64,000 bases of DNA. It comes from Psococerastis gibbosa (Eukaryota; Arthropoda; Insecta; Psocodea; Psocidae). Made by a program: the position numbers and the translations under genes. Each line of letters starts with the position of its first letter. Position 1 is the first letter of the stretch. Under the pieces are notes generated by a model, which made no database searches, had not been told where the DNA came from, and saw only the letters and a program-made list of their open reading frames with translations. The DNA lies in the NCBI GenBank assembly GCA_963971405.1, contig OZ020488.1, forward strand, positions 4,526,001 to 4,590,000, read 5' to 3'. Shown piece by piece: positions 98 through 62,489 of this stretch.

Positions 98-280
98 ATG
101 TGAGCAAATCGCATGATGTGGAGAGTTCTGAAAAAAGAGCAGACATTCGTGGAAGAATGGTATTGGAAAGCACTGATTTATTGGAGGAATTAATTATTCA
201 ATCAGGTCTGGACCAAGAAGAGGAGAACCAACAGAGTGAACCGACTCCTGCGCAGGCGGATTCATTAGAGTCGAAGACAG
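98..280 (+). CDS. Cassette 1, exon A: acidic linker exon
   Basis: Internal exon of 183 nt (61 codons). It follows the acceptor ttttctctcttacttag and ends at the donor cag|GTGAGT. Two bases complete a split codon at the start and one base is left at the end, so the exon is phase 1 on both sides and can be skipped without a frame change. The product is acidic and hydrophilic, rich in Glu, Ser and Gln (LEELIIQSG, then EEENQQSEPTP), with no recognised domain. A stop codon (TAA) falls in frame inside the donor region, so intron retention would end the protein there. Near-identical copies lie at 5199 and 12587. It probably acts as a flexible acidic spacer between the upstream shared part and the BED fingers. 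The function is unknown. Confidence 0.72.
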
Positions 281-1137
281 GTGAGTAATAAAGGTTCTTC
301 ACAATAACTTTCACATGGCTAGGAAGCAAAATTACCTGCGATGGGTGGTCAAGAGATTGAGTATTGAGTGCCCTAAGTAGTAAGTGACCGAAACCCATAG
401 TATATCGTTGTCGTTATTAATGTTAAAAATGCGCAAAGGGTCGCTTGCACTTTGATAGTTAGGTTCTGGGTGTAAAATAATAAAAAAAAGACTCAATATT
501 CATGAAAAAGTACTAAAACAAATTTTCTGTGGAACCTTTCTGTCGATGATTTCTAACTTATGGTATATTTTAGATATTAATTAGTGTAACAAAACCAAAA
601 AGGTTGCTTTCCCCATGAATAATTCACTGCTTAATGCATTACATTCCCTAGCCTCTACAACACGTTATCACAGTTGGACCTAACAATTGACATAAATCGA
701 AATAGCTTATCATCATATAAACATCTCATCCGCGTGCTGCTTGTTATATCACCTGAGTAGTTAACCGTATGCCTACTATTTACCTATTTTTTACTTATTT
801 CTTATTTATTTTTTACGTTGTCAACTATGTATGTATGTTGTGACCTATTTGTAAAACCATTTTTAAGTAATTCTTCTGTGTTTAGTTTATAGGCCTAAGT
901 AGTTTTTGTTTCTTTATTTATCATATTTACTTAGACTATATGTATTGACTATATGTATTACACCTAAGGGGCAATGTCCTTGCCCTGTTGTAATATAAGT
1001 AATAATAATAATAATAATAATAAAATAGTAATAAAATTCCCGGCCAATATTACTGTGTTGTAATATACCACACTGCACTGTTCCCTCATCAACTATTAGT
1101 TTTTGTAATACTACAAGGACACTCTCTTTTATTTCAG
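281..1137 (+). other. Intron A-B of cassette 1, with an old dispersed-repeat relic
   Basis: Non-coding. Positions about 410-640 match the 5' half of the 0.8-kb dispersed repeat seen intact at 21897-22738 (shared landmarks: tcgttattaa, gatgatttctaactt, ttgctttcc). The same relic occurs in the matching introns of cassettes 2 and 3. A short AAT microsatellite lies at about 1002-1024. Confidence 0.6.
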
Positions 1138-1377
1138 GACATAAGAAACGTTCATTAGTGTGGGTGTACTTTATAAAAAATAAAGACGAAGGAAGTGCTA
1201 CTTGCAAACTTTGTAAAGCGACACTGCGTACTCCTAATGCATCATCTACTACTAACCTGTTACGGCACTTGCGCTCAAAGCACCATTCACTTTATAAATA
1301 TCACATGAAAGGGAATGTAGACACATCTGTTTCTCAGGGCAATATCACCTTAAAGAGAGCTGATGCGAAGAAATCCG
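1138..1377 (+). CDS. Cassette 1, exon B: BED-type zinc finger I
   Basis: Exon of 240 nt after acceptor tttatttcag, phase 1 in and phase 1 out at donor ccG|GTAATT. The protein has the BED signature: VWVYFIKNKDEGSAT, then C-x2-C (CKLC), 17 residues, then H-x4-H (HLRSKH). A Ser/Thr-rich tail with DAKKSG follows. BED fingers bind zinc and usually DNA, in chromatin regulators and in hAT-derived proteins. The donor GTAATT is weak, and a stronger GTAAGT lies 35 nt downstream at 1413. Using that one, or no donor, leads to an early stop (TAG at 1419). Paralogous exons lie at 5852 and 14526. Confidence 0.83.
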
Positions 1378-2182
1378 GTAATTATTTTGCCTCTGATTCG
1401 ATGCTATATACAGTAAGTTAGTTTGTAGACTTTGTTTGGAGAATTAGTTCAAATCACCAATCGGGATGACGAATTGTTTCCTCAATCCTGACTGGGTTGC
1501 CAACTTTTTTTCTTCCAACGACAGTATTTTCTATACCAATATGTCTAAAAATATAGTAAATCTGGAAAATGCCTAAAAAAATATAGTAGGATAATTTATC
1601 TTTTTTTTTTTTTTAATTAAATCGACTTATCCTTATTCATGTTTAATTTGTTAAAGAATGTAATTTGTTGCTGCTGCACGTAACAGCTTTTTATTTCTAT
1701 TTTTTTTAATTCAAAGCTCCCCGGGCACGTCTAATCAATAACTCAGCTTTTATTAGCTCAATGCTGGCCCAAAGGCCCAAAAATATAGTAGTTTCACCCA
1801 CTATGTATTTAAGAAATATTTATAGTAGGGTTGGCAACTCTAATCCTGACTCTCATGGAAAGCATGGGATGAAGATCGATTATTTGTAATAATCTTCATG
1901 ATTCTATAAAAATATTTACCGTGAGACTACACTGTGCTTTACCTACACTCGCCTGTTAAGCCTGTTCTCTATTGAACACAAATGAAGAGATGACAAATCA
2001 GGTTCGACGATTTTTTAAATATTAAGAAGCTTTTTCGACCCGCGTTGATGGTCCTATATTGCTGAAAATTGCATCATTTATCACTGTATTCTTTTAATAT
2101 AAATCATCATGTACTTCATTATATGGCTGTAATTACATATTAGAGAAATATATTTTATATTGGCACGTCTCTTTTATTTCAG
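1378..2182 (+). other. Intron B-C of cassette 1
   Basis: Non-coding. About 1500-1840 holds AT-rich sequence in which 'aaaatatagtag' recurs. The last 130 bases are homologous to the end of the same intron in cassette 3, where a 2.9-kb element is inserted. This copy gives the unoccupied site. Confidence 0.6.
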
Positions 2183-2434
2183 GATCAACGAAATGTGCAA
2201 AGGTTTGGATGTATTTTGTAGAAGATGAAAGCCAAGCAAGTGCTACTTGCAACTTATGCGGAGCCAAAGTGAAAACGTCTTATGGAACTACCACTGGCTA
2301 CATTAGTCATTTGCGCAACAAGCACACTTCAGCTTACATATCGCTGGGCCTCAAGGTTAAAACTGACGAAACTGCTTCTGATATGGCTACCGTTCAAAAG
2401 ACTACTCCCTTGAAGTTAAGCCCGAAAACGGAGG
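2183..2434 (+). CDS. Cassette 1, exon C: BED-type zinc finger II
   Basis: Exon of 252 nt between acceptor tttatttcag and donor gagG|GTAAGG, phase 1 on both sides. It encodes a BED finger: VWMYFVEDESQASAT, C-x2-C (CNLC), 16 residues, H-x4-H (HLRNKH). A 35-residue Thr/Lys-rich tail with TTPLKLSPKTEG follows. Reading through the donor meets TGA after five codons. It lies 0.8 kb after exon B and 0.45 kb before exon D and keeps the frame with both. Close copies are at 7744 and 18042. Confidence 0.83.
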
Positions 2435-2500
2435 GTAAGGACCTATGGTGAAAATCATAATTAATAAAATATGTGTTACTGATACTTTCCATTAATTACT

Positions 2501-2628
2501 TCATTTTCTGGCCATGCTTCGGAGCGCATGTAAAGCAGGCGGTCCCGGGACTTCCTAGTTGGGTGTAGGAGAGGGCTTTATAGCTTTAACTTCGCTAGGT
2601 TGGCTTAGTAACAGAACAAAAAGAGTCA
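2501..2628 (+). repeat. SINE fragment (3' part) in intron C-D
   Basis: The segment 'ggccatgcttcgga ... aggcggtccc ... gctaggttggcttagtaa' matches the 3' part of the tRNA-derived SINE at 20330-20545. The tRNA-like head is absent. Confidence 0.65.
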
Positions 2629-2883
2629 ATATATATTTTCAAATTCAGTTTAAGGTATAATGCAATTATCTTAGGCGACATTTTCTTCATAACTTCGACC
2701 AAAACTCAAATTCAGTTAAGGTATATTCCAATTATTCTCTATCACTTTCTTCATAACTTCGAACAATACATAAATGCTACGATGCCTGTTTATTAGCAGA
2801 GCCCTTCAAAGCAGATTTTAGACCCCATCCGATAAATCCTTGACTCCATTTCTATGTAGATCGATCTATTTCTCTTGTTGCAG

Positions 2884-3113
2884 AACCCAATATGAAGTCA
2901 AGAGTTTGGTTGCTTTTCACGAAGAATGAGAACAAAACTACTGCAACTTGTCAATTGTGCAGTCATAAGTTGACCTTGAACCGCTATGGAGGCACCACCA
3001 CTCTCCGGAAACACATCAAACATAATCACGTTGAATTTTTCAACTCACTCGACCGAAACAACGGAATTGAGAAAAAGATTATGAATGGAAACGTCTATTA
3101 TATTTTGAATTAA
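2884..3113 (+). CDS. Cassette 1, exon D: BED-type zinc finger III, terminal
   Basis: Terminal coding exon of 230 nt after acceptor ttcttgttgcag, entering in phase 1 (G|AA gives Glu). The BED finger reads VWLLFTKNENKTTAT, C-x2-C (CQLC), 17 residues, H-x4-H (HIKHNH). The short tail ends with GNVYYILN and stop TAA. The aromatic position usually held by Tyr is Leu here. A possible poly(A) signal AATAAA lies at 3405-3410. Joined A-B-C-D, cassette 1 encodes about 301 residues with three consecutive fingers. Paralogues at 8440 and 18546 keep the same length exactly. Confidence 0.83.
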
Positions 3114-5198: not shown

Positions 5199-5372
5199 AT
5201 GGGAGCAAATCGCATGATGTGGAGAGTTCTGAAAAAAGAGCAGGCATTCATGGAGAAATGGTATTGGAAAGCGCTGATTTATTGGAGGAATTTATTATTC
5301 AATACAAAGAGGAGGAGAACCAACAGAGTGAGCCGACACCTACGCAGAAGGATTCATTAGAGTCGAAGAAAG
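5199..5372 (+). CDS. Cassette 2, exon A: acidic linker exon
   Basis: Copy of exon A, 174 nt, after acceptor ctcttatttag and before donor aaG|GTGAGT, phase 1 on both sides. The acidic peptide keeps SKSHDVESSEKRA and EEENQQSEPTP. Relative to copies 1 and 3 it has a 9-nt in-frame deletion where they read SGLDQ or SGVAE; here the sequence runs IIQYKEEEN. The deletion keeps the frame, which suggests selection on the reading frame or recent origin. Confidence 0.72.
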
Positions 5373-5851: not shown

Positions 5852-6091
5852 GACCTAAGAAACGTTCAAAAGTGTGGTTGTACTTTATAAAAAATAAAGA
5901 CGGAAAAAGTGCTACTTGCAAACTTTGCAAAGCGACACTGCGCTGTCTTATTGACTCATCCACTACTAACCTGTTGCGGCACTTGCGCACAAAGCACGAT
6001 TCTCTTTATGAATACGAGATGAAGGGGAATGTAGACACATCTGTTCCTCAGGACAATGTCACCTTAAAGAGAGCTGATGCGAAGAAATCCG
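5852..6091 (+). CDS. Cassette 2, exon B: BED-type zinc finger I
   Basis: Exon of 240 nt between acceptor ttttatttcag and donor ccG|GTAATT, phase 1 in and out. The BED finger reads KVWLYFIKNKDGKSAT, CKLC, 17 residues, HLRTKH, and the tail is the same as in copies 1 and 3. In contrast to them, the strong alternative donor GTAAGT 35 nt downstream is mutated to GTTTAT, so only the GTAATT donor remains. The upstream reading frame is also open by chance. The start of the exon is set by the acceptor and by homology. Confidence 0.83.
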
Positions 6092-7743
6092 GTAATTGTT
6101 TTGCTTCTGATTCGATGCTATATACAGTTTATAGACTTTTTAAGGAGAATTCTTTCTAATTGTTATTGCAAATTTTAGGCGTGAGTGCCGATCATAACTC
6201 TAACAACTGTGCACCTTGATTGCGCTGACAGCAAAATCTTCAGGTACCCGGTTTTTTGGGCTCATTGATGTTGTTTCTAGTCATGACTACGAGGGATGTT
6301 TACAAATAGCTAGCGCCATCTTGAAGAGCGCTAAATTTTTTCAAACAGGATTTCTAACTACTGTCCGTCTAAAAATTTTATGGACAGTTGTTATAATCCA
6401 TAGGACAGTTATTAGACAATCTGCTTATAAATGAATGACGATAAGCTGTTTAGTACGGTAACTACTTACAATAGAAAGGGGAACTTTTAGCTGCCTAGAT
6501 TAGTTTTCCATAGGTAGGCACTCGAGTATTTTGTACGCCACATTACACTTTTTTTGGAGGAGAAGAGGGAGAAAGATAGAAAGAGGAAGATGAGATTCCA
6601 GGGCAAACATGGCAGGGGAAGAGAAACAGACTCGTAAAGCAAAAGGAACCCAAGGACCCCCTCTTACAATCGCCTAGGATATCACCTAACCCAAAGCACT
6701 GAATTAATCGATGGAATTGCATATTCTAGGCCGGTCAGACCAACACATTACCACACAGTAGTAATGGCAGGGCACGCAATGCATTTGAGCGTGAATTTTC
6801 TATCATTTTTTCAAAAAACATTTTTTTGCCCAAAACCAAATACTTCTTTGGGAAAGCAACCTTTCCGGTTTCATTACTCTTGTTAACACCTAAAACATGC
6901 CTGAAGGTAGAAATTATCGATAGAAAGGTTTCGCAGAAAAATGATTTTTAGTCATTTTTCATTAAAATTTTTATTTTTATTTTTTACCCCCAGAAGCAAA
7001 CTATCAAGGGGCAAGCGACCCCTCGCATTGTATTAACATTAATAAGGGCTACAATATATGTGAATTTAAAAGAAATCGTTGGAGCTGTTTTTGAGAAATA
7101 ATTTTTTTGACGTTTTTTTTTGAGTTTTTTGAGAATAAAACCCCCCAAATTGAGTTAGCCCAAAATAAAAAAAATAAAAACAATCTCGAGGTATGATTTT
7201 TATGAACCGACATGCCGAATTCCATAAAAATCCACTGTGTAGTTTGCCGAAAAATCGACCGACAGACAGACATTTCGTAAAAACCACTTTTTTGGGTTCC
7301 TGGGACCTCAAAACGTGTAAATCCGTTGAAATCTCGGAATCGAAAATTTTGACCATCACAAAGCTTTCCTTATACTACGTATAAATTGGAAAGCAATAAA
7401 TGCGAATGGCGCGTAAAGACTAGGAATCTATGTAGCACTATAACTAATTTACATAAAATAGTTCGTAAATAATTTATGAAAATGGTCATACAGGAATTTT
7501 TGTAAAATGCGGACCTTTTATATTCTTATCCGAAATAAGTGCGTGACATCGATGTCTTTGCGAAATTCCCGCACACATTAATTTTTGCACAAACGAATAA
7601 CAGTCAGGGGATATCTAAGAACTACCCATGGATACCTATTAAAAAATTAAATAAATAAAAAATACACCAAAAGTGACCGTTTTCAGGAGAATGACTGAAC
7701 GAATGAATGCATATTTTATATTGGCACGTCTCTTTTATTTCAG
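6092..7743 (+). other. Intron B-C of cassette 2
   Basis: Non-coding. It contains a copy of the 0.8-kb dispersed repeat at about 6725-7396. Nothing else is recognised. Confidence 0.6.
6725..7396 (+). repeat. Dispersed repeat family X, copy 1 (5'-truncated)
   Basis: Matches the longer copies at 21897-22738 (+) and 39849-40712 (-). Landmarks in order are 'aatggcagggca', 'atcgatagaaag', 'cccccagaagcaaactatcaa', 'gagttagcccaaaa', cagacagaca and the end 'ataaattggaaagcaa'. No protein is encoded, so it appears non-autonomous. The family end carries the inverted motif gctttccaatttat. Confidence 0.75.
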
Positions 7744-7971
7744 GATCAACCAAACTTTGGATGTATTTTGAAGAAGATGAAAGCCAAACAAGTGCTACTT
7801 GCAACTTATGTGGAGCCAAAGTGGAAACGTCTTATCAAAGTACCACTTGCTACATTGGTCATTTGCGCAACAAGCACAGTTCAGCTTACATATCGCTGGG
7901 TCTCAAAGCGAATACAGACGAATCTGGTTCTGATATGGCTACCGTTCGAAAGACTACTCCCATAACGAGGG
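7744..7971 (+). CDS. Cassette 2, exon C: BED-type zinc finger II
   Basis: Exon of 228 nt after acceptor tttatttcag, donor aggG|GTAAGG, phase 1 on both sides. The BED finger reads LWMYFEEDESQTSAT, CNLC, 16 residues, HLRNKH. Two in-frame deletions against copies 1 and 3 are visible: the RSK/CAK stretch before the conserved Trp, and the LKLSPK stretch near the donor. Both keep the frame. Finger residues are intact. Confidence 0.82.
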
Positions 7972-8439
7972 GTAAGGACCTGCTGTGAAAATCATAATAA
8001 ATAAAATATGTGTTACTGATCTTGCCATTAATTACTTCTTTGTCAAATTCAGTTTAAGGTATATTTCAATTATTTTCTATCAATTTCTTCATAACCTTGA
8101 ATAACACACAAATGCTACGATGCATGTTTATTAGTAAAGCTTCTCAAAGCAGATTTTGGAAAATCCTTGACTCCATATCTATGTAGATCGCTCTATTTCG
8201 GCTATTGTAGAGTCAATCCATTAATTACTTTATTTTCAAATTCATTTTATGGTATATAAACCATTATCTTAAGCGTTATTTTCTTCTTAACTAAACATTA
8301 CTATCATAACTTACATAAAACCCAATCCTGTGATGTATGTTTATTAGCAGAACCCCTCAAGACAGATGTTAGACCCCATGCGATAAATCCTTGACTTCAT
8401 TTCTATGTATATTAGAACGATCTATTTCTCTTGTTGCAG

Positions 8440-8669
8440 AGCCAAAAATAAAGTCAAGAGTTTGGTTGTTTTTCACGAAGAATGAGAACAAAACTTTTGC
8501 AACTTGTCAATTGTGCAGCCATAAGTTGACCTTGAACCGCTTTGGAGGCACCACCTCTCTCCGGAAACACATCAAACATAAACACGTTGAGTTTTTTAAC
8601 TCACTCGACCGAAACAACGGAATTGAGAAAAAGATTGTGAATGGAAACGTATATTATATTTTGAATTAA
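8440..8669 (+). CDS. Cassette 2, exon D: BED-type zinc finger III, terminal
   Basis: Terminal exon of 230 nt after acceptor ctcttgttgcag, phase 1 (G|AG gives Glu). The BED finger reads VWLFFTKNENKTFAT, CQLC, 17 residues, HIKHKH, ending with GNVYYILN and TAA. Length and ending match copies 1 and 3. Spliced A-B-C-D, cassette 2 encodes about 290 residues. Confidence 0.83.
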
Positions 8670-12586: not shown

Positions 12587-12769
12587 ATGGGAGCAAATCG
12601 CATGATCTGGAGAGTTCTGAAAAAAGAGCAGACATTCATGGAGAAGTGGTAGTGGAAAGCACTGATTTATTGGAGGAATTAATTATTCAATCTGGTGTGG
12701 CCGAAGAAGAGGAGAACCAACAGAGTGAACAAACTCCTACGCAGACGGATTTATTAGAGTCGAAGACAG
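12587..12769 (+). CDS. Cassette 3, exon A: acidic linker exon
   Basis: Third copy of exon A, 183 nt, acceptor ctctcttacttag, donor caG|GTGAGT, phase 1 on both sides. It encodes SKSHDLESSEKRADIHGEVV and EEENQQSEQTPTQ and is acidic with no recognised domain. Length equals copy 1. Both splice sites match copy 1. A TAA codon lies in frame just inside the intron, as in the other copies. Confidence 0.72.
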
Positions 12770-13529: not shown

Positions 13530-13926
13530 GGACATGTAGAGTGGTGGTACGGACTCTGACTTTCACCCGAAAGGTTGTTGGTTCGAGTCCTACTCATCCA
13601 CATTTTCTGGCTATGCTTCGGAGGGCCTTCCTAGTTGAGTGTAAGAGAGGGCTTAATAGCCCTAACTCCGCTAGGTTGGCTTAGTAATAGAACAAAAAAG
13701 TACTTATTTATTTATTTATTTATTTATACTATTGGATCATAGCCCTCCCCGAAATAAAGTCCTGGTTCTGGCTATGCTTCGGAGGGCCTTCCTAGTTGAG
13801 TGTAAGAGAGGGCTTAATAGCCCTAACTCCGCTAGGTTGGCTTAGTAATAGAACAAAAAAGTACTTATTTATTTATTTATTTATTTATACTATTGGATCA
13901 TAGCCCTCCCCGAAATAAAGTCCTGG
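13530..13926 (+). repeat. tRNA-derived SINE with an exact 161-bp tandem duplication
   Basis: 13535-13600 is a tRNA-like head with B-box ggttcgagtcc, followed by the SINE body. The stretch from 'ctatgcttcgg' (13611) through a TTTA microsatellite to 'gtcctggtt' is repeated from 13772 with period 161 and no difference that I could see. This implies a recent duplication. Confidence 0.75.
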
Positions 13927-14525
13927 TTACGTGCCTGCGTCCTATCGATCAATTCAGTGCTTTGGGATAGGAAATTCCGAGGCAACCGAAACCTAACCCT
14001 AGGAAAATTACGATATTTACTGTGGAAATATATTATTTATCTCGGTATCTACGCTAATTTGATAAATAGAAAAGCATTTTCGAGTAAACTCGGACCGGTT
14101 CTTTAGGTAGGGCTGCCATCGATAGTTGTTCGACCGCCGCCATGTTTGTTTATATCGGTTGATTTGATGTTTTTCTTTAAAACAGTGCCACGAACGTCCT
14201 GACTAATACCACGTTTCTTACTCTGTTAAATATTTTCGATTTAGCATAATCACCCCGAGGCCCACTCCCGATTGTTTGTTAACTTAGATAGCACGTCTAA
14301 CATTGTGAAGGCCCTTTCTGTGTCGAAAGCCTGCACATCCTGGTCCTTTTTTTCTGCTAGGGATTCATTGGACTAGACTGTCTGGCGCCAATGAACAACA
14401 AATATTGTAGATTGCGCTGATACTATTAATGCAATAAACACAGGCTCTTTTTTCGGAACACTGCACAGTTCCCTCATCAACTATTAATTTTTGTAATACA
14501 ACTAGGACCTTCTCTTTTATTTCAG

Positions 14526-14765
14526 GAACTAAGAAACGTTCAAAAGTTTGGTTGTACTTTATAAAAAATAAAGAAGAAAGAAGTGCTACTTGTAAACTTT
14601 GCCAAGCGACACTGCGCACTCTTAATGCATCATCTACTACTACCCTGTTACGGCACTTGCGCACAAAGCACCATTCACTTTATGAATACGAGATGAAAGG
14701 GAATGTAGACACATCTGTTTCTCAGGGCGATGTCACCTTAAAGAGAGCTGATGCGAAGAAATCCG
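14526..14765 (+). CDS. Cassette 3, exon B: BED-type zinc finger I
   Basis: Exon of 240 nt, acceptor ttttatttcag, donor ccG|GTAATT, phase 1 in and out. The BED finger reads KVWLYFIKNKEERSAT, CKLC, 17 residues, HLRTKH, with the same DVTLKRADAKKSG tail. The stronger alternative donor GTAAGT sits at 14801, as in cassette 1. Its use would shift exon C out of frame and give a single-finger product. Zinc ligands are intact. Confidence 0.83.
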
Positions 14766-15104
14766 GTAATTATTTTGCTTTTGATTCGATGCTGTATACA
14801 GTAAGTTAGTTCATAGACTTTGTAAGGAGACTTCTTTCAAATCACCAATCGGGATGACGATGACTCAATCCTGACAAGGTTTGCCAACTTTTTTTTCCCT
14901 CTAACTACAGTATTTTCTATACCAATGTGTCTAAAATTATAGTAGATCAGGAAAATGTCTAAAAAAAATGTAGTAGGACAATTTATCATATTTTCTTTAA
15001 TTAAATTAGTATGCTGGAAATAGGATCATTTATCACTGTATTCTTTTAATATAAATAATCATGTACTTCATTGTATGGCTTTAGTTACTTATTAGAGAAA
15101 TATA

Positions 15105-18041: not shown

Positions 18042-18293
18042 GATCAACGAAACGTTCAAAGGTTTGGATGTATTTTGAAGAGGATGAAAGCCAAACTGGT
18101 GCTACTTGCAACTTATGTGGAGCCAAAGTGAAAACGTCTTATCGAACTACCACTTGCTACATAAGTCATTTGCGCAACAAGCACAGTTCAGCTTACATAT
18201 CGCTGGGCCTCAAGGTGAATACTGACGAAACCGGTTCTGATATGGCTATCGTTCGAAAGACTACTCCCTTGAAGTTAAGCCCGAAAACGGAGG
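18042..18293 (+). CDS. Cassette 3, exon C: BED-type zinc finger II
   Basis: Exon of 252 nt after acceptor cttttgatttag, donor gagG|GTAAGG, phase 1 on both sides. The BED finger reads RSKVWMYFEEDESQTGAT, CNLC, 16 residues, HLRNKH, with tail TTPLKLSPKTEG. It starts 33 bases after the end of the foldback element, yet the acceptor and polypyrimidine stretch are preserved, so splicing remains possible. The branch region may be new. Confidence 0.82.
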
Positions 18294-18545
18294 GTAAGGA
18301 CCTATGGTGAAAATCATAATTAAGAAAATATGTGTTACTGATCCTTTCCATTAATTGCTTCATTGTCAAATTCAGTTTAAGGTATATTTCAATTATTTCT
18401 ATCATTTTCTTCATAACCTCGAACAACACATAAATGCTACGATGCATGTTTATTAGCAGAGCCCCTCAAAGCAGATTTTAGACCCCATCCTATAAATCCT
18501 TGACTCCATTTCTATGTACAGATCAAGCTATTTCTCTTGTTGCAG

Positions 18546-18775
18546 AGCCAAAAATGAAGTCAAGAGTTTGGTTGTTTTTCACGAAGGATGAGAACGGAAC
18601 TATAGCAACTTGTCAATTGTGCAGTCATAAGTTGACCTTGAACCGCTATGGAGGCACCACCGCTCTCCGGAAACACATTGAACATAATCACGTTGAGTTT
18701 TCCAACTCGCTCGACCGAAACAATAAAGTTGAGAAAAAGATTGTGAATGGAAATGTCTACTATATTTTGAATTAA
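18546..18775 (+). CDS. Cassette 3, exon D: BED-type zinc finger III, terminal
   Basis: Terminal exon of 230 nt, acceptor ctcttgttgcag, phase 1 (Glu). The BED finger reads VWLFFTKDENGTIAT, CQLC, 17 residues, HIEHNH, ending GNVYYILN and TAA. Same length as its two paralogues. A-B-C-D together give about 301 residues. Downstream sequence matches that of cassette 1 at about 19005-19050. Confidence 0.83.
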
Positions 18776-25825: not shown

Positions 25826-26028
25826 GACCTGGAAAAAAGTTAAATGTGTGGGAGCACTTTGTAAAAAATACAAGCAATGACATTGCCACTTGCACGCGTT
25901 GTGGAACCAGTCTGCGCCATTTAAAAGGGGGTTGTACTACACCCCTCATAAGGCGATATGCCAATTTCATCTTTTATTGTTTTGTGCTGTATGGGAATTT
26001 GGCAGCGGCCACAGTGTCGGTTGTATGA
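25826..26028 (+). pseudogene. Truncated BED exon (first of the single-exon array)
   Basis: Acceptor cttctgttgcag, phase 1 entry (Gly). The first half of a BED finger is present: NVWEHFVKNTSNDIAT, C-x2-C (CTRC), then GCTTPLIRR. Where the first zinc-ligand His should be there is Tyr (RRYANFIF), and homology stops. The following sequence, about 25960-26290, looks unrelated and may be inserted DNA. The open frame continues to TGA at 26026. Without the H-x4-H pair it cannot form a BED finger. It is either a dead exon or the exon was cut by an insertion. Confidence 0.6.
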
Positions 26029-26681: not shown

Positions 26682-26881
26682 CCAGGAGATCAGTGGCATG
26701 GAATTATTTCTTGAGATGTACCGAAAATGCCAAATTTGCAGTATGTCAGATGTGTTACAGTAGAATCAAGGTAGAAGGTGGCAGCACGTCGGGACTACGG
26801 CGACATCTCATAAGCAAGCACCCGATGGATTGTATTTCTCTGCTGCATACAGAACATCATCGGTCGAAATCTTTTGAATAA
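26682..26881 (+). CDS. BED finger terminal exon
   Basis: Acceptor attctcttacag, phase 1 (G|CC would give Ala). BED finger: SVAWNYFLRCTENAKFAV, CQMC, 16 residues, H-x4-H (HLISKH). A 25-residue His-containing tail ends FE and TAA. It belongs with 27506 and 30665 in a group sharing 'STSGLR-HL'. No donor is apparent, so it is probably a 3' terminal exon. No AATAAA was seen close by. The start is set by the acceptor, not by the internal GTG. Confidence 0.78.
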
Positions 26882-27505: not shown

Positions 27506-27714
27506 GATTCCCGCGGATGAACGCGTCATTTGTATGGGGTTATTTTATCAGGGACCGTCCAAAACAGATAGCGGAGTGTGTTATTTGCAAAGCTGTAGTC
27601 AAGACGAAATATAGTAGTACATCTGGCCTAAGAAATCATCTTAAATACAAGCATAGTGATGTGCTCGCTTCAGATTTTACAGTACAGCATGAAAACTGGA
27701 ATTCTCAACAATAG
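27506..27714 (+). CDS. BED finger terminal exon
   Basis: Acceptor ttctatgttgacag, phase 1 (G|GA gives Gly). BED finger: SFVWGYFIRDRPKQIAE, CVIC, 16 residues, HLKYKH. The tail is SDVLASDFTVQHENWNSQQ and TAG. It closely resembles 30665 (IRD, QIA, VVK, YSST). Its last 70 coding bases are the seed of the 98-bp tandem array that begins inside the exon and continues to about 28440. Confidence 0.8.
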
Positions 27715-28440
27715 TCCATTTTGGTCTTTGAAATCACCACTTATTCAAGCATAGTGATGTGCTCGCTGCAGATTTTACAGTACAGCATTAAAACTGGAAC
27801 TCCCAACAAGGGTCAATTCTGGTCTTTGAAATCATCACACATTCAAGTATAGTGGTGTGCTCGCTTCTAATTTTACACTACATCATGAAAACAGGATTTC
27901 TCAACAATAGTCCATTTTGGTCTTTCAAATCATTACCAATTCAAGCTTAGTGATGTGCACGCTTGAGATTTTACAGTACAGCATTAAAACTGGAATTCTC
28001 AACAAGGGTCAATTCTGGTCTTTGAAATCATCACACATTCAAGCATAGTGGTGTGCTCGCTTCAAATTTTACACTACATCACGAAAACAGGATTTCTCAA
28101 CAATAGTCCATTCTGGTCTTTGAAATCATTACCAATTCAAGCTTAGTGATGTGCACGCTTGAGATTTTACAGTACAGCATTAAAACTGGAATTCTCAACA
28201 AGGGTCAATAATGGTCTTTGAAATCATCACACATTCAAGCATAGTGGTGTGCTCGCTTCAAATTTTACACTACATCACGAAAACAGGATTTCTCAACAAT
28301 AGTCCATTCTGGTCTTTGAAATCATTACCAATTCAAGCTTAGTGATGTGCACGCTTCAGATTTTACAGTACAGCATGAAAACTGGAATTCTCAACAATAG
28401 TGCATCCAATTCAAGAAAACACCTTAAAAACGTTCATAGC
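27620..28440 (+). repeat. 98-bp tandem array derived from a BED exon tail
   Basis: Eight units with the marker gtg(a/g)tgtgc(t/a)cgc at 27656, 27754, 27853, 27950, 28048, 28146, 28244 and 28342, a spacing of 97-99. From unit three, two variants alternate (gtggtgtgctcgc and gtgatgtgcacgc), giving a 196-bp higher-order repeat. The first unit is the coding end of the exon at 27506. The array closes with a decayed finger end (RKHLKNVHSN, then TAG) at about 28415-28447. Confidence 0.85.
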
Positions 28441-30664: not shown

Positions 30665-30909
30665 GTTTTTCAAATGCGAGGCTCAACACGTCTCTAGTAT
30701 GGAAATATTTTATACGGGACAAGGCAAACCAAATAGCCCATTGCATTCTCTGTCAGACAGTGGTGAAAATGAAGTACTATAGTACAACAGGACTGAGGCG
30801 ACATCTGAAGAGGAAACATGTGGAAGTATATGAAGAGTTGGAAACTGATGTAGTCACTGTTTTCAAGGAAAGTTTGGAAGGGGAAGAACTGACGCCCTTG
30901 GATCAATAG
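30665..30909 (+). CDS. BED finger terminal exon with acidic tail
   Basis: Acceptor tttatttttacag, phase 1 (G|GT gives Gly). The frame is open for 80 codons without an in-frame ATG upstream of the finger. BED finger: SLVWKYFIRDKANQIAH, CILC, 16 residues, H-x4-H (HLKRKH). An acidic tail of about 34 residues (YEELETDV, ESLEGEELTPLDQ) ends with TAG. It is most similar to 27506 and probably arose with it by duplication. A candidate AATAAA lies at 31530-31535. Confidence 0.82.
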
Positions 30910-32292: not shown

Positions 32293-32510
32293 AACCAAAA
32301 TCTGAAGTTTGGCGTTATTTTGTTAAGGACTACCAAAAAAAGAGCGCCGAATGTCAGTTTTGCCATGCGACGCTCAAAATTTGCAGGTCCAGCACAACAA
32401 CGCTAAGAAATCATCTGCTGCGCAAACACCCCGCGCAGGCTATGGAAATGCTGCAGATTGAAACCGAAAAGAAATCGAGGGCTGAAATTGTATGCTCCTT
32501 TTACTCTTAA
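32293..32510 (+). CDS. BED finger terminal exon
   Basis: Acceptor tttaattttcag, phase 1 (G|AA gives Glu); 71 codons, then TAA. BED finger: SEVWRYFVKDYQKKSAE, CQFC, 16 residues, HLLRKH. Next comes PAQAMEMLQIETEKKSRAE, a charged helical tail of a type that recurs in most downstream exons (EEM...EKEKKSR). There is no in-frame ATG before the finger, so it can only be used as a spliced exon. First member of the group 32293, 37170, 40831, 41999. Confidence 0.82.
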
Positions 32511-34432: not shown

Positions 34433-34629
34433 TTCCGTTGCCAAATGACGAGGTGCATCGATTCTATTTGCGAGATTTGAAGAACGACATGGTTCAGTGT
34501 CGCGTCTGTCTCAACAAGATTCCGTTTAAGAAACGCGGCGGGAAAATCGGTTGCCGTAATCATCTGCGACTCAAACATCCAGTGGTGTACCGCGAAATTT
34601 GCAAAAGGGAACGTGAACTACGGTCTTAA
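34433..34629 (+). CDS. Divergent BED finger terminal exon
   Basis: Acceptor ttttttttatag, phase 1 (G|TT gives Val). It lacks the V-W start (DEVHRFYLRDLKNDMVQ) but keeps C-x2-C (CRVC), 17 residues and H-x4-H (HLRLKH). A basic tail (YREICKRERELRS) ends with TAA. The missing Trp would weaken the usual aromatic core, so its fold is less certain. A related ATAAA-like signal (gataaaa) lies at about 34670. Confidence 0.72.
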
Positions 34630-37169: not shown

Positions 37170-37405
37170 GGCATCCAACAAAATCTGTAGTTTGGCGATA
37201 TTTTTTACGAAACAGCGAAAAAAGCGGGGCCACATGTCTCATTTGTAATTGGTCCACGAAAATGCATAAATCAAGTACTGGAAATTTGCGCGGTCATTTG
37301 ACGAAGAAGCATCCTGTTCAATCGGAAGAAATGGGATTTATTGAAAAAGAGAGGCGTAACCGAATTCAGACACTTTGGAACCAGGCTTCAGTGATACCTA
37401 CCTAG
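37170..37405 (+). CDS. BED finger terminal exon
   Basis: Acceptor ttttttttattttag, phase 1 (G|GG gives Gly). BED finger: SVVWRYFLRNSEKSGAT, CLIC, 16 residues, HLTKKH. Tail: VQSEEMGFIEKERRNRIQTL, ending VIPT and TAG. It is closest to 40831 (RNSEK-GAT, EEM-IEKE). The acceptor fixes the exon start; the upstream part of the open frame (37076-37169) is intronic. Confidence 0.82.
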
Positions 37406-38109: not shown

Positions 38110-39180
38110 TGATGTTGCATCGGCTTGCTAGATATTTTACATTAATATAATTGTTATTGTAGTTGTGCCGAACGACCAAGGGGTTGCAAAGGAATTACTC
38201 TTTGAGCACCGCTGCTGTAAAATGAATAAAGGGTTTGTCCGGAAAGTAGTGTCAGTGAATTTTCTTTTACGTAGACTGTACGCGCAAGCGCGCGCTTTAC
38301 CGGCTCAGATTTTGGTGGGGGGATCTGGCAACAAGTTCCAACAAGCGTCAGCTGGCTGCCGATCGTTGTAATGGTCACATCAGTTGTTCCATGTGAGTCG
38401 GTACAGTAACCCGGTGCAAGCAGAAAAAAAGCGTTCGCTTTAGCTACGGCGATCTAGTTTTGTGTAAAACTGGAGAAGAGTGCTGCGGAAACCATTATAA
38501 TGTTGAAGAAGGCTTTCGATTGCCCTTCGGGTATACAAATGTTCCGGTGGTACAAGGCCTTCGCAGAAGGTCTGGAAGACGCCAACGACGAGCCCCGCGC
38601 TGGACGGCCATCAACCTCCAAGGTTTTAGTAATGTTCAATTTATCGGAAATCAAACGGACACATACATGACGATCAGTGTTCAACAAGTCACGCACATGT
38701 TGCACATTGTCGTCGTTAATGGAGGTTGATGGCCCTCCAGCGCGGGGCTCGTCGTTGGCGTCTTCCCGACCCTTTGCGAAGGCCTTGTACAACCGGAAAA
38801 TTTGTCTGCCCGAAAGGCAATCGTCGCCGAAAGCCTTCTTCAACATTATAATGGTTTCCGCAGCACTCTTCTCCAGTTTTACACAAACGTAATCGCCTTC
38901 CGTTGCTCAAGCAAACGCTTTTTTTCTTCTTGCACCGGGTTACTGTATCGACTCACATGCAACTACTGATGTTCTGAAAATCTGAGCCGGTAAAGCGCGC
39001 GTTTGCGCGTACAGTCTCCGTAAAAAAAAATTCACTGACATTACTTTCCGGACATACCCTGTATTCATTTTACAGCAGCGGTGCTCAGAGTAATTCCTTT
39101 GCAACCCCCCTTGGTCGTTCTGCACATCTAAAATAACAATTATATTAATATAAAATATCTAGCAAGCCGTTGCAACATTG
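38110..39180. mobile_element. Palindromic element made of two inverted mariner 5' ends
   Basis: The outer flanks 'gttgcatcggcttgctagat' (38113) and their mirror near 39160-39180, and the mariner-type ends 'gtccggaaagta(g/a)tgtcagtg' (about 38238 and, reversed, 39030-39055), form arms of about 500 bases. Each arm encodes the start of a mariner transposase. The symmetry centre is near 38660. It cannot make a full enzyme. Confidence 0.75.
38454..38910 (-). pseudogene. mariner transposase N-terminal fragments (both arms)
   Basis: Minus-strand frame 38454-38846: KKAFGDDCLSGRQIFRLYKA, then GREDANDEPRAGGPSTS, INDDNVQHVRDLLNTDRHV, RLISDKLNITKT. This is the N-terminal HTH region of mariner transposase (family length about 350 residues). 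The plus-strand arm carries the inverted counterpart. The DDD catalytic part is absent from both. Confidence 0.7.
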
Positions 39181-40830: not shown

Positions 40831-41069
40831 AACGCATACGACAATTTTCTGCCGTTTGGCGCTACTTTGTAAGGAATAGCGAAAAGAATGGTTCGACATG
40901 TCAGCTTTGCTTGTCTCACGTGAAAACATACAACTCGGGCACTAGTAAACTGAGGGAGCATCTGATAAGGAAGCATCCTGAGCAGCACGAGGAAATGCGC
41001 CGCATTGAAAAGGAGAAGAAGAGTAGAGACTGTGAGCTTTTTGGGCCATGGCTTGCGAACTTCGTCTAG
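40831..41069 (+). CDS. BED finger terminal exon
   Basis: Acceptor catatgtatttcag, phase 1 (G|AA gives Glu). BED finger: SAVWRYFVRNSEKNGST, CQLC, 16 residues, HLIRKH. Charged tail QHEEMRRIEKEKKSRD, ending LANFV and TAG. Closely related to 37170 and 41999. The open frame upstream of 40831 is intronic. Confidence 0.83.
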
Positions 41070-41998: not shown

Positions 41999-42246
41999 AA
42001 CTTGCTCCAACTTCAACGATTTCGAGAAAGTCCAAGGTCTGGGACTATTTTGAACGGCATGACAGTAAAGATGGTGCTACGTGTCATATATGCAAAAGGA
42101 AGTTCAAAGTTATCAATGGAGGGACGACTGCCTTGCGGAATCATCTGTTACGAAAACATTGCGCTCAGTACCAGGAAATGCATAAAAAAGAACTGGAAAC
42201 GTCCTTTTTGAAAAAATATGATTTCGCCTTTTTCAACTTACAATAA
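41999..42246 (+). CDS. BED finger terminal exon
   Basis: Acceptor cgttatttcag, phase 1 (G|AA gives Glu). A Ser/Thr-rich lead (LAPTSTISRK) precedes the BED finger: SKVWDYFERHDSKDGAT, CHIC, 16 residues, HLLRKH. Tail YQEMHKKELETSFLKKYDFA ends LQ and TAA. Poly(A) signal AATAAA at 42255-42260, nine bases after the stop, which supports a 3' terminal exon. It is only 0.93 kb from 41069. Confidence 0.84.
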
Positions 42247-43653: not shown

Positions 43654-44057
43654 GGCCAGAAACTGAATTGCGGAAACACTTCACAGTGGACTTGACAAAC
43701 AACACAGCATTTTGCCGACTTTGTAACGTTCAACTTCAAATTTGCAATAGTAACACAAACTCGGTGTTTCAATCGCACTTAAGTACCAAACATCTGCTTT
43801 ATTGGCACAAGTATCTACAAGAAAATCGCAGCTCTAGACCCGAGGTGTGGAAGTATTTCGATAAGGATGAGCTAAATAATACTGGCACCTGCAGGATATG
43901 TCGCCAGCAGCTGAAGCTGCATCAAAAAACTACCTCGAATTTCCGTAACCATTTGAGTATAAAGCATCCGGAGCATTCGTTGCAAATGCGTGAAAATGAA
44001 GTGAAGAAATGGCATGCTAGTAGTTTTGAACAGTTTACTTACGGCAGTTTCCTTTGA
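43654..44057 (+). CDS. Terminal exon with two BED fingers
   Basis: Acceptor taccatttgtag, phase 1 (G|GG gives Gly); 404 nt, the longest exon here. Finger 1: LRKHFTVDLTNNTAF, CRLC, 17 residues, HLSTKH, lacking the V-W start. Spacer YWHKYLQENRSSR. Finger 2: PEVWKYFDKDELNNTGT, CRIC, 16 residues, HLSIKH. The charged tail ends TYGSFL and TGA. The spacer's end (NRSSRPEVW) resembles the first residues of other exons (DNRSEVW), as if two exons had fused with loss of the intron between them. Confidence 0.84.
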
Positions 44058-48237: not shown

Positions 48238-48467
48238 ACAATAGATCCGTGGTGTGGGACTACTTTGCCAAAGACGCAATTAACAAGAAAGTCATTTGCC
48301 GCATCTGCCGCCATGTTTTTAAAATTGGCCAAGGAACCACCAATTTTCGAAAGCATTTAATTAATAATCATGTCGATCAGTATGAAGAATTGCGAGCCAT
48401 AGAAGCACAAAAACGGAGCCTTGCGATAAACGCTCTAAATCAATTAAAGTTTTTTATGAATAAATAA
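48238..48467 (+). CDS. BED finger terminal exon
   Basis: Acceptor cttttatttgcag, phase 1 (G|AC gives Asp). BED finger: SVVWDYFAKDAINKKVI, CRIC, 15 residues, HLINNH. Tail: QYEELRAIEAQKRSLAINAL, ending FFMNK and TAA. Two overlapping AATAAA motifs (48459-48468) include the stop codon, so the 3' UTR must be very short. Near-identical partner at 50110. Confidence 0.85.
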
Positions 48468-50109: not shown

Positions 50110-50339
50110 ACAAAAGATCCGTTGTATGGGACTACTTTTTCAAGGACTCAATCAACAAGATAGTCACATGCCGCATCTGCCGCCATGTTTTCAAAATCGG
50201 CCAAGGAACCACCAATTTTCGAACGCATTTAATTAATAATCATGTGGATCAGTATAACGAGTTACGAGCCATAGAAGCACAAAAACGGAACCTTGTGGCC
50301 AACGTTTTAAAAAGTTTTAATTTTTTTATGAAGAAATAA
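50110..50339 (+). CDS. BED finger terminal exon, twin of 48238
   Basis: Acceptor ttttctttacag, phase 1 (G|AC gives Asp); 75 codons, no start codon needed. BED finger: SVVWDYFFKDSINKIVT, CRIC, 15 residues, HLINNH. Tail QYNELRAIEAQKRNLVANVL, ending FFMKK and TAA. AATAAA at 50335-50340 overlaps the stop. Identical length and layout to 48238, with scattered, mostly conservative changes: a recent tandem duplicate of about 1.9-kb spacing. Confidence 0.85.
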
Positions 50340-50931: not shown

Positions 50932-50999
50932 TTATTATGGAATATTCGTTCTGAATCTTAATATTATATATAATATTATATATCTATATTTTAATATTC

Positions 51000-51610
51000 A
51001 CAGAGTCACAGAACAGTGACCTGTCACGAGTACAAAAAACCCCAACAAGGGCGCTGTTGTCATTTGGCAACCAAACACCCTCGGGAATCCTAAGATACGC
51101 ACCAAGCTGAGTCCACGAAAATGGAATTCATTGTAAAATTGTGAGTCACGTTTCTTGGCCTTACTTGATGGTCTTTGAACTATTTTGTGAACTGTGACTT
51201 CTTAATAGGCAAGGTTTTATTGGTAATATTATTATTTTAATATTCACAGGGTCACAGAACAGTGACCTGTCACAAGTACAAAAAACCCCAACAAGGCGCT
51301 GTTGTCATTTGGCAACCAAACACCCTCGGGAGTCCTAAGATACGCACCAAGCTGAGTCCACGAAAATGGAATTCATTGTAAAATTGTGAGTCACGTTTCT
51401 TGGCCTTACTTGATGGTCTTTGAACTATTTTGTGAACTGTGACTTCTTAATAGGCAAGGTTTTATTGGTAATATTATTAGTTTAATATTCACAGAGTCAC
51501 AGAACAGTGACCTGTCACTGGTACTAGAAACCCCAACAAGGGCGCTGTTGTCATTTGGCAACCAAACACCCTCGGGAGTCCTAAGATACGCACCAAGCTG
51601 AGTCCACGAA
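51000..51610 (+). repeat. ~245-bp tandem array of decayed exon-intron units
   Basis: Marker gtcacagaacagtgacc at 51005, 51251 and 51497. Each unit joins an acceptor-like end (tttaatattcacag) to a remnant of an exon tail (catttggcaaccaaacaccc, gctgagtccacgaa). Frames are closed by stops. The acceptor part matches the real exon at 51893 and the tail part matches 50705, so units span an exon end plus the next intron end. Confidence 0.8.
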
Positions 51611-51892: not shown

Positions 51893-52116
51893 AGTCAAGA
51901 TCGCAAGTGTGGAAATATTTTTCCAAAGATATTGCAAATAAGAAGGTGATATGCCGGCTTTGTCAATATGAGATTAGATTAAGAGGACCTACATCATCAT
52001 ACCGCTATCATTTGAATGCGAGACATCCTTTGGAAGCAAGGAAAATGCGGGAAGTAGAATCTACCATAAGGGAGTCCGCCATGATTAAGCTACGGAGTTT
52101 GAATCTACCTTTTTAA
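51893..52116 (+). CDS. BED finger terminal exon
   Basis: Acceptor tttaatattcacag, phase 1 (G|AG gives Glu). BED finger: SQVWKYFSKDIANKKVI, CRLC, 15 residues, HLNARH. Tail RKMREVESTIRESAMIKLRS ends LNLPF and TAA. Very close to 54526 (SRSQVWKYF, EIRLRGPTS). Its acceptor region is repeated upstream in the tandem array. Confidence 0.84.
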
Positions 52117-54525: not shown

Positions 54526-54767
54526 ATTCGAGATCGCAAGTTTGGAAATATTTCGCCAAAGATGTTGCAAACAGCAAGGTGATATGCCGGATTTGCCGAC
54601 ATGAAATTAGATTAAGAGGGCCAACTTCAAACTATCGCTATCACTTGGAAACTAGACATCCCTTGGAAGCGAAAAAGATGCGTGAAGCGGAATCGATCAG
54701 AAAACGAATGAAGATGCAGTGTTTTAATCTAAAAGTTAGAGAACTGGTTCTTTTAGGACCACACTGA
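54526..54767 (+). CDS. BED finger terminal exon
   Basis: Acceptor tatatgtttaacag, phase 1 (G|AT gives Asp). BED finger: SQVWKYFAKDVANSKVI, CRIC, 15 residues, HLETRH. Tail KKMREAESIRKRMKMQ ends LLGPH and TGA. Twin of 51893 from the acceptor to the tail, after which the two diverge. Confidence 0.84.
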
Positions 54768-57035: not shown

Positions 57036-57286
57036 AGTCGAAAGTAGTGTGGAGATATTTTGCTGAGGATTCAGTGCTTAACATGGCGATTTGCCGGCTC
57101 TGTGGTCAACAAATGAGCCTAAACGGCGTCTCTTCTGCTTCTACTTACCGGAATCATTTGGAAACGAAACATCCGGGAAAAAACATTACCAAGCGTAGTA
57201 AGCATACCTCTACATATATTATAACACTTAATCCGTCTGTCTGTCCCTCGAGGGGCTTGGCACATGTTAAGAGCACACCTAATTAG
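57036..57286 (+). CDS. BED finger terminal exon, extended tail
   Basis: Acceptor ttataaatttgcag, phase 1 (G|AG gives Glu). BED finger: SKVVWRYFAEDSVLNMAI, CRLC, 17 residues, HLETKH, then PGKNITKRSKHTSTYIITLN and a tail ending STPN, TAG. The tail after about residue 55 lacks the charged helix of its neighbours and reads like sequence taken over from non-coding DNA. The true end could be earlier if a donor such as 'cgtagtaag' (57194) is used. Confidence 0.76.
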
Positions 57287-58172: not shown

Positions 58173-58367
58173 ATCCGGTTATGAAAGCAAAAGTTTGGAA
58201 ATACTTTTCGAAGGATGTGGCCAATAGAATCGCGCACTGCATTATATGTTACAAACAGCTGTCGTGTAACAGATCCGTCACCGGCTTAAAGAAAACATCT
58301 GATTGACCAGCACCCGATTGAGGCGCAAGCAATGCGAGAAGCAGAAAGCGAACTGGCTTTAATCTAG
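58173..58367 (+). pseudogene. BED finger exon broken by a one-base frameshift
   Basis: Acceptor tttttatactgcag, phase 1 (G|AT gives Asp). The frame starts normally: KAKVWKYFSKDVANRIAH, CIIC, then SVTGL. An extra A in the run at 58288-58290 shifts the frame and gives TGA at 58304. One base over, the sequence continues as a normal finger end (RKHLIDQH) and charged tail (EAQAMREAESE) up to TAG at 58365. All zinc ligands are present across the two frames. It is either a young pseudo-exon or a sequencing error in a homopolymer. Confidence 0.75.
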
Positions 58368-59878: not shown

Positions 59879-60099
59879 ATACGCGATCTGAGGTGTGGGC
59901 CTATTTTAACAGGGATACTATAAACAGTATAGTGACGTGTCGCATATGTGACCGTAGATTTGTTTTTCGAGGAGCGGGTCAAGGTACCAAGACCTACCGT
60001 TTTCATTTGAAACGAAAGCATCCTGCCGAAGCAGTTGCTATGCTTGATAAGGAGAAGAAGAAAAAAGCACCTTGGTTATTTAATGAAACTGTTGATTGA
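59879..60099 (+). CDS. BED finger terminal exon
   Basis: Acceptor tttcaattgcag, phase 1 (G|AT gives Asp). BED finger: SEVWAYFNRDTINSIVT, CRIC, 18 residues (longer loop with GAGQGTKTY), HLKRKH. Lys-rich tail EAVAMLDKEKKKKAP ends ETVD and TGA. It groups with 62245 (same 18-residue loop and M-L-D-K-E-K-K-K-K tail). Confidence 0.83.
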
Positions 60100-60293
60100 T
60101 AAGATCTGAGTGCAGCAGTAGAAGAACATCCTGGTTGAAAAACCTGAGGCTCTGGTCTAGCAAGAACAAGCAGCAGTCCCAAGGTCCAAATTGTCATGGT
60201 GATCCCAATTCTTTGGTAAAAGAGGAATTTCAAGAAGTTCATTAATCAATCAATAACAAATTACTTACACTATTACTAGCGTTAACCAGGGGC

Positions 60294-60785: not shown

Positions 60786-61204
60786 GAACTGAGACACAGG
60801 AAGGATTGGCCCAGCTCTATTACGCGGCACGGAGTCATATGGCCTACCAGCCAAAGCCGGGCGTTGGCTGAACAATCAGAAGTCTGCATTGAAATGCTGA
60901 TAATATTTCGGAGCCGGAATCAACGGTTCGACTTTGGTTTGAGAATGGCGAAATGTTTGTTCCCAATCGTTCTATTTGGTATGGCGGGATATAGTAAATC
61001 GCAGGAATAATAATTGTCAGCTTTATTGATTTCATAATAGTAAAATAAATAAGAAAAGTGATGTTGACCTTAAAAAATATATTGATTCTATTTTTTATAT
61101 ACATATTTATTTTTTTACTTTTGCGATGATTCTTGTAGGGTCTTAAACACCTTATTATATCGCTTGAAGTATTATTCATTATTGTATCCGAAAATAGAGA
61201 TTCA

Positions 61205-61320
61205 TGAAAAACGTGGACTAGGTGGGACTCGAACCCACGGTTTCTACAGTGAGTGACTGAGTGCAGCGGCAACACGATGCTAAGGCGTAGTCGCTGGTTC
61301 ATGTCCCACCGGGTTATTTC
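61205..61320. repeat. tRNA-like segment pair
   Basis: 'ggtgggactcgaacccacgg' is a reversed B-box region, and 'gctggttcatgtcccaccgg' follows about 70 bases later in the other orientation. This resembles the hairpin at 54200. There is no complete tRNA fold. Confidence 0.45.
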
Positions 61321-61324
61321 TTTA

Positions 61325-61715
61325 CAGAAGGTGCCCATTCCATTGACCGGCTAGGGCTATTTCCAAAAACGATGACGTGGTAGCAGACATTCAAGACTTA
61401 GGTGGCGTTTCCACCGACCTCGCATTGCAGAATTGAGGGAAATGTTTATTTTCCTCCATACCATCGTTAAAATTGACCAATGATCATACAGTAAAATCAC
61501 AAACAAACTAAAATTAAAAAATGGCTTCATGGGATATGTTAATTACAGACATTTTAATAGATTTCTATAAAAAGAAAAACAAACATTTCCGTCAATGTCA
61601 TTTGCAATCTGCAATGCGAGGTCGGTGGAAACGCTACCTAAGTCTTGAATGTTTGCTACCACGTCACCGTTTTTGGAAATAGCCCTAGCCGGTCAATGGA
61701 ATGGGCGCCTAATGT
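61325..61715. mobile_element. Harbinger-like MITE, family M1, second copy
   Basis: Same layout as 48659-49047: ends '(g)gtgcccattccattgaccgg' and its mirror (ccggtcaatggaatgggcgcc), with inner inverted pair ggcgtttccaccgacctcgc. Ends have drifted. A one-sided related start (ggcagctattccacttgg) lies at about 61788. Confidence 0.7.
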
Positions 61716-62032
61716 CTCATAACAAGATGGCCTCTTCAACCTTAAGTCAATTTAGTGTTAAAATAATTTATAATCTAAATATCATGCTAAGGCAGCTATT
61801 CCACTTGGCAATATTCCGTCATTTGATTTTTATTTTACTCTATGTCATTGTCCATTTTAACTTCCGCATGTTAAAATTGATCAATGATCATTCATAGAGT
61901 AAAATGACGCTTTGCAAACAATAACAAACAAAAATTAAACAATGACGTCGTCTGAAGATGATAAATAATTGTAATTAATTTCTTGAGAACGAACGAATTA
62001 TTTCATAATTTAAATCGTAAAATGTCTTGTAG

Positions 62033-62208
62033 ATTATAAAATTAAAAGAAAAACGGCGGCCAAACTTACAAAATTGGAAAAATCGAAAACAAAAATTTCA
62101 ATTAATGAAGACAAGTGGAATGAGGTGTCCAAATATAATTGCAGCATTGATGATTTTTCCATCAGTGACATTATCAATATTGAAGAAAAACTGGCAAGTA
62201 TAGAATAG
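62033..62208 (+). CDS. Candidate in-phase terminal exon without a BED finger
   Basis: After a weak acceptor (aaatgtcttgtag) the frame in the array's common phase (G|AT gives Asp) is open for 57 codons to TAG. The product is a basic then acidic, helix-prone peptide: KIKRKTAAKLTKLEKSKTKI, then NEDKWNEVSKYNCSIDDFSI and INIEEKLASIE. It has no Cys2-His2 pattern and no family that I recognise. It ends 36 bases before the BED exon at 62245. A GC-type donor (ctg|GCAAGT, 62194) could alternatively make it internal, though not in phase 1. It could be chance. Confidence 0.4.
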
Positions 62209-62244
62209 CCCCATAAGATAATGCTCATTTGTGTATTTTTTCAG

Positions 62245-62489
62245 AGAGGCGATCAGAGGTTTGGACTTATTTTACGAGGAACAGAGTGACTGGAGTAGTG
62301 ACATGCCGTCTTTGTAGCCATATGTATTACAATTATCGGTCAACCAATGGAACCAAGGGGGTTCGTCTGCATTTGCAAAAGCGACATAACTCAGAGTATA
62401 AGCAAATGCTCGACAAAGAAAAAAAAAAGAAGGCTGCCGCTTTGGAACGTATATCGTTAAATTTTCCTACGTGGCAAAATCACTATTAA
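62245..62489 (+). CDS. BED finger terminal exon, last in window
   Basis: Acceptor gtgtattttttcag, phase 1 (G|AG gives Glu). BED finger: SEVWTYFTRNRVTGVVT, CRLC, 18 residues (RSTNGTKGVRL end), HLQKRH. Tail YKQMLDKEKKKKAAALERIS ends WQNHY and TAA. A possible AATAAA lies at about 62512. Paired with 59879 by loop length and tail. The array may continue beyond 64000. Confidence 0.84.

Follow-up and report, generated by a model that had tools for sequence, protein, structure and literature searches.

The stretch of DNA analyzed here (the window, 64,000 nucleotides of Psococerastis gibbosa) corresponds to positions 4526001 to 4590000 of contig C13 in a 409-Mb assembly, is eukaryotic with 35 to 41% G+C, and carries a long array of exons encoding BED fingers (Table 1). 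A profile seeded with 26 plus-strand BED sequences from the window detected 29 BED domains in 28 frames (E ≤ 0.01), all of them on the plus strand, where a two-strand motif search also placed all 26 of its BED-like matches, with none on the minus strand. No minus-strand profile match passed the same threshold, the best one having an E value of 0.18, and the controls (the reversed sequence and five Markov sequences) yielded no fingers. Nine of the 28 exons were scanned against Pfam and seven passed the zf-BED cut-off, the exceptions being the exon at 34433-34629, which fell below it, and that at 25826-26028, which has a broken finger and gave no match. One exon contains two fingers (43654-44057), and a comparison of one BED exon with solved structures gave only a weak match, to 2ct5, the finger of ZBED1 (E value of 0.066). 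Scans of the window with Rfam (gathering threshold) and for tRNAs were empty. The plus-strand array announced in a preliminary description of this DNA is real, although the exon at position 98 (98-280) is not a BED exon, as had been stated, but an acidic linker exon. This linker occurs four times, with three copies inside the window, and carries no finger; the window copies are entered and left in phase 1, and two of the three have an internal Met.

The fingers of the array share an entry phase, as had also been claimed. With a simple home-made acceptor score, the best acceptor was in phase 1 for 27 of the 29 window fingers, and the phase-1 site was the second choice in the other two. Over the 260 kb that end with the window (C13:4330001-4590000), which hold 57 fingers distributed over 56 frames (an exon with two fingers counts twice), the best acceptor was in phase 1 for 53, with a phase-1 second choice for the other four. 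An iterated BED profile found 77 BED-like fingers in the same 260 kb, all 77 on the plus strand, with the best acceptor in phase 1 for 71, phase 2 for three, phase 0 for two, and none for one. Twelve further array fingers beyond this region (eleven downstream and one from a cluster at C13:9.87 Mb) all had phase-1 best acceptors, with scores of 2.0 to 6.7. Finger-free frames used as a control (n = 506) were distributed over phases 0, 1, and 2 as 187, 174, and 145, with a median acceptor score of -0.6 and 17% above 2.5. For comparison, BED fingers were scored at 11 further loci of the genome, some of them near-identical copies of each other; they had best acceptor scores from -6.3 to 2.2, or no site, in phase 1 for three, phase 2 for three, phase 0 for four, and none for one. 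It is the uniform phase, not the score, that sets the array fingers apart from those at other loci; the acceptor score alone fails to separate the two, because equally low values occur in a few fingers of the array.

Window frames stop 6 to 53 residues past the last finger, which leaves too little room for a transposase, unlike in a hAT transposase or ZBED gene, in which BED and transposase share one long frame. Between finger and stop, 52 of the 57 finger frames in the 260 kb have no donor-like site above threshold, which bears out the claim that most BED exons end in their own stop; a phase-1 donor precedes the stop in three B-type exons (starting at 2183, 7744, and 18042), and a phase-0 donor-like site lies between finger and stop in two A-type exons. 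These data bear on the idea that the BED fingers are mere relics of hAT-type transposons, a graveyard and not a working array, to which we give very little credence. The short tails speak against it, as do the location of all 77 fingers on one strand and the single acceptor phase, unlike that of the BED fingers at the 11 other loci. It is true that many genomic BED matches lie in frames of 550 to 735 residues that resemble transposases, that two of the 29 window fingers are broken (25826-26028 and 58173-58306), and that family A showed no significant constraint (two pairs tested, p of 0.26 and 0.29). However, dN/dS was below 1 in every pair computed (0.34 to 0.68 in families A to D and 0.14 in pair E), and the excess of synonymous changes was significant (p < 0.05, Fisher's test) in four of eight pairs (one B, one C, D, and E). 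The farther apart two fingers lie in the array, the less identical they tend to be (Mantel r of -0.51, with 0 of 2000 permutations as low), which is the expectation under tandem duplication.

A genome-wide BTB search gave 124 matches. Two of them make up a single split domain upstream of the window (C13:4326528-4327185, plus strand), encoded by two exons (4326456-4326641 and 4327012-4327188) on the same strand as the array. This domain matched the Pfam BTB family with an E value of 2.2e-24, as well as known BTB domains among solved structures (59 sequences). Two further exons of the upstream part (4327578-4327732 and 4328036-4328319) were read by eye from their GT-AG sites, and the four exons joined give 802 nt without a stop, or 267 codons and a single extra base, which puts the last donor (TAGTG/GTGAGTG, after 4328319) in phase 1. 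The tail of this BTB part is rich in acidic and polar residues, and its start codon probably lies further upstream. The preliminary description had anticipated a shared upstream exon that ends in phase 1 and in which a BTB domain would be telling, and the BTB part described here lies on the same strand, with its donor 198 kb ahead of the window start and 260 kb ahead of the last window exon. The first finger exon downstream of the BTB, at 4339165, has a phase-1 acceptor (the stretch 4329201-4330000 was left out). Judging from this agreement in phase, the BTB part may well be shared among the exons of the array.

The surroundings of the window contain FLYWCH exons as well as BED exons. Between 3.78 and 4.82 Mb of C13, the Pfam search gave at least 54 BED matches on the plus and at least 6 on the minus strand, together with at least 23 FLYWCH matches on the plus and at least 117 on the minus strand, all of them lower bounds with 150 of 288 BED and 150 of 200 FLYWCH candidates scored. 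This interval holds 140 of the 148 FLYWCH matches listed genome-wide, and, among the matches listed, 111 of the 117 minus-strand FLYWCH and all six minus-strand BED lie to the left of the BTB. Thirteen plus-strand FLYWCH exons were found in the 260 kb, none of them in the window, where the fingers are BED only; the best acceptor is in phase 1 in 12, the thirteenth being a truncated finger, and the four minus-strand FLYWCH exons that were read are all in phase 1. At 4.445-4.514 Mb, BED and FLYWCH exons are interleaved with a common strand and entry phase. Part of the finger counts is due to a segmental duplication, recent or partly an assembly effect, between C13 ~4.60 and ~4.66 Mb (two 3.1-kb pairs, 54 to 55 kb apart, 97.9% and 99.3% identical), to which ten pairs of listed fingers belong by position.

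The nearest BTB relatives with the same split lie at C13:4.760 Mb (56 to 62% identical) and C13:41.306 Mb (55 to 63%). Both are on the plus strand, and downstream of each there are BED and FLYWCH matches on that strand. By eye, the BTB appears to be of the arthropod TTK type, with YSLKWND in the first BTB and FSLKWNN in the second (that at 4.760 Mb), compared with the motif FxLRWN (PMC11426971). The region at C13:4.716-4.817 Mb repeats the layout of the first BTB, with minus-strand FLYWCH upstream (six matches just upstream of the BTB at 4.760 Mb) and plus-strand BED and FLYWCH downstream.

Could the BED exons be the ends of one or several separate genes, with unseen 5' exons and promoters, while the BTB part serves FLYWCH exons only? 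We regard this as improbable. Both exon kinds also follow the two BTB paralogues, they are interleaved at 4.445-4.514 Mb in the same strand and entry phase, the linker is in phase 1 at both ends, and 17 of the 28 window frames lack a Met ahead of the finger. The other 11 do have an in-frame Met there and may start independently, and stand-alone BED genes were set aside save for these frames; between the phase-1 acceptor and the finger, a Met occurs in four of the 29 window fingers. Separate genes would also fit the long distance between the BTB and the BED exons and the linker exons that accompany the three units at the left of the window (two copies with an internal Met), which could mark sub-genes, and Drosophila mod(mdg4) is known to include acceptors with their own promoters (PMC12692577).

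For the minus-strand FLYWCH exons, a different, divergently transcribed gene whose first exon lacks a BTB would need no trans-splicing, and we consider it a possible but rather unlikely explanation. A 5' exon lacking BTB would escape the searches made, and only four minus-strand exons were readable, but their entry phase is the exit phase of the plus-strand donor, two BTB searches listed no minus-strand BTB match at 3.78-4.33 Mb, and trans-splicing between exons on the two strands has been documented in Drosophila and Danaus (PMC4667647).

The window thus probably lies in the middle of an unusually large locus of the mod(mdg4) type, about C13:3.78-4.82 Mb, with swappable BED or FLYWCH ends on a shared BTB part, the type being assigned by layout and FLYWCH content and not by orthology of the BTB. 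The layout like that of mod(mdg4) or lola put forward in the preliminary description is supported, with its BTB part and phase 1, but FLYWCH exons on both strands argue for a mod(mdg4)-type locus with BED added and not for a separate BED-only system. According to this model, the 5' part (BTB with its acidic and polar tail, ~267 codons, C13:4326456-4328319) would be spliced from its phase-1 donor to one terminal exon per mRNA, entered in phase 1 and bringing its own stop and, usually, a single finger for DNA binding, which is BED in the window and either BED or FLYWCH in the rest of the locus. Linker exons (98-280 and its copies), with phase-1 entry and exit, would be optional cassettes in between, and B-type exons may act as cassettes in the same way. 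Trans-splicing, known from mod(mdg4) of Drosophila and Danaus, would be needed to attach the minus-strand exons that precede the BTB. The predicted outcome is a family of mutually assembling BTB proteins that differ in their DNA target. We infer the use of the exons, the pairing of donor and acceptors, the trans-splicing, and the DNA targets from the anatomy of the locus.

Several observations weigh against this model. Splicing in cis from the BTB donor needs a very long intron, and the third and fourth exons of the upstream part were recognized by open frame and splice consensus only, with no known domain or homologue. The acceptor score is a simple one, and some array fingers score low. To these have to be added the two broken fingers, the family without significant constraint, and the 11 frames with a possible start described above, as well as the matches of the third BTB (C13:41.306 Mb), which contain in-frame stops.

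Like mod(mdg4) of Diptera and Lepidoptera, the locus combines a BTB 5' part with many alternative 3' exons and FLYWCH fingers on both strands, and in Danaus mod(mdg4) an acceptor gene likewise precedes the donor and is encoded on the other strand (PMC4667647). Cis-spliced homologues have been reported for one beetle and two hymenopterans. It differs from the mod(mdg4) loci described in PMC4667647, with 9 to 41 exon combinations per species, in its number of Pfam matches (at least 140 FLYWCH and at least 60 BED) and in the presence of BED, a word that occurs 0 times in the main text of that paper. In lola of Drosophila, a shared BTB 5' part is also joined to alternative zinc-finger ends (PMC11426971), but these carry C2H2 fingers, unlike the BED and FLYWCH fingers found here. 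Identity with lola was set aside on the FLYWCH content, which indicates the mod(mdg4) type; no C2H2 family passed the Pfam cut-off in the nine window exons scanned, and no C2H2 search was made of the locus. The insulator proteins BEAF-32, Ibf1, and Ibf2 similarly use a BED finger as DNA-binding part but are separate proteins without a BTB domain (PMC5094011). A BEN domain is mentioned in the same source for one Mod(mdg4) isoform; a genome-wide search for BEN-domain exons gave one match, on C19, and none in the locus.

The layout itself is therefore known, and what is new, as far as searched, is that a locus of this kind has BED fingers as terminal exons and has so many exons. Among the top-ranked results in the openly licensed literature, no paper described BED exons as part of a locus of the mod(mdg4) type; genome annotations were outside this scope and may hold annotated examples. 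If the exons are used, one gene would provide a set of BTB regulators several times the reported mod(mdg4) sets (9 to 41 per species), a second DNA-binding fold would have entered the same splice phase, indicating that the alternative-3'-exon design accepts new folds, and the recent duplicates would form a natural series for studying how such proteins gain targets. Were the joining of exons as proposed, a single gene could make many different chromatin regulators, and both-strand mod(mdg4) layouts would probably extend beyond Diptera and Lepidoptera. More tentatively, and as a conjecture that may well prove wrong, the ~1-Mb locus could hold some 200 or more interchangeable BED and FLYWCH terminal exons on both strands, nearly all in one phase where read and served by one main BTB donor, partly via trans-splicing, a repertoire that would keep growing by tandem duplication and perhaps track changing DNA targets such as transposons. 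We know of no exon-choice transcription-factor repertoire anywhere near this size.

Table 1. BED and linker exons along the window, numbered from its first base
Feature	Position	Strand	Basis
Acidic linker exon, copy 1	98..280	+	Phase-1 entry, phase-1 exit (GACAG/GTGAGTAAT)
BED exon, family A	1138..1421	+	Profile, acceptor score, Pfam-scanned
BED exon, family B; phase-1 donor ahead of stop	2183..2451	+	Profile, acceptor score, Pfam-scanned
BED exon, family C	2884..3113	+	Profile, acceptor score
Acidic linker exon, copy 2	5199..5372	+	Phase-1 entry and exit
BED exon, family A	5852..6159	+	Profile, acceptor score
BED exon, family B; phase-1 donor ahead of stop	7744..7988	+	Profile, acceptor score
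BED exon, family C	8440..8669	+	Profile, acceptor score
Acidic linker exon, copy 3	12587..12769	+	Phase-1 entry and exit
BED exon, family A	14526..14809	+	Profile, acceptor score
BED exon, family B; phase-1 acceptor second best; phase-1 donor ahead of stop	18042..18310	+	Profile, acceptor score
BED exon, family C	18546..18775	+	Profile, acceptor score
Broken BED exon, last part of finger lost	25826..26028	+	Profile; no Pfam match
BED exon	26682..26881	+	Profile, acceptor score
BED exon, tail runs into 98-base tandem repeat	27506..27714	+	Profile, acceptor score
BED exon	30665..30909	+	Profile, acceptor score
BED exon	32293..32510	+	Profile, acceptor score, Pfam-scanned
Divergent BED exon, Pfam score under cut-off	34433..34629	+	Profile, acceptor score
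BED exon	37170..37405	+	Profile, acceptor score
BED exon	40831..41069	+	Profile, acceptor score
BED exon	41999..42246	+	Profile, acceptor score
Two-finger BED exon	43654..44057	+	Profile, acceptor score, Pfam-scanned
BED exon, family D	48238..48467	+	Profile, acceptor score
BED exon, family D	50110..50339	+	Profile, acceptor score
BED exon; phase-1 acceptor second best by score	50705..50931	+	Profile, acceptor score
BED exon, family E	51893..52116	+	Profile, acceptor score
BED exon, family E	54526..54767	+	Profile, acceptor score
BED exon	57036..57286	+	Profile, acceptor score
Truncated BED exon, stop precedes histidines	58173..58306	+	Profile, Pfam-scanned
BED exon	59879..60099	+	Profile, acceptor score, Pfam-scanned
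BED exon	62245..62489	+	Profile, acceptor score, Pfam-scanned

Three tandem repeats lie among these exons: a 98-base array of about eight copies (27632-28405) that starts inside the tail of the BED exon at 27506-27714, a 161-base unit in two identical copies (13605-13928), and a 245-base unit in 2.5 copies (50987-51610). A minus-strand frame at 38454-38906 resembles, by eye, what we take to be a remnant of a mariner-type transposase. Further along the contig, a plus-strand cluster of BED and FLYWCH matches occurs at C13:9.859-9.883 Mb, with no relative nearby among the BTB protein matches listed; the one finger read there has a phase-1 acceptor. Elsewhere in the genome, the telomere repeats point away from a dipteran host: TCAGG gave 2 matches and TTAGG gave 13701 and 7614, of which the 100 listed map to C1 and, with a single exception, lie close to its end.

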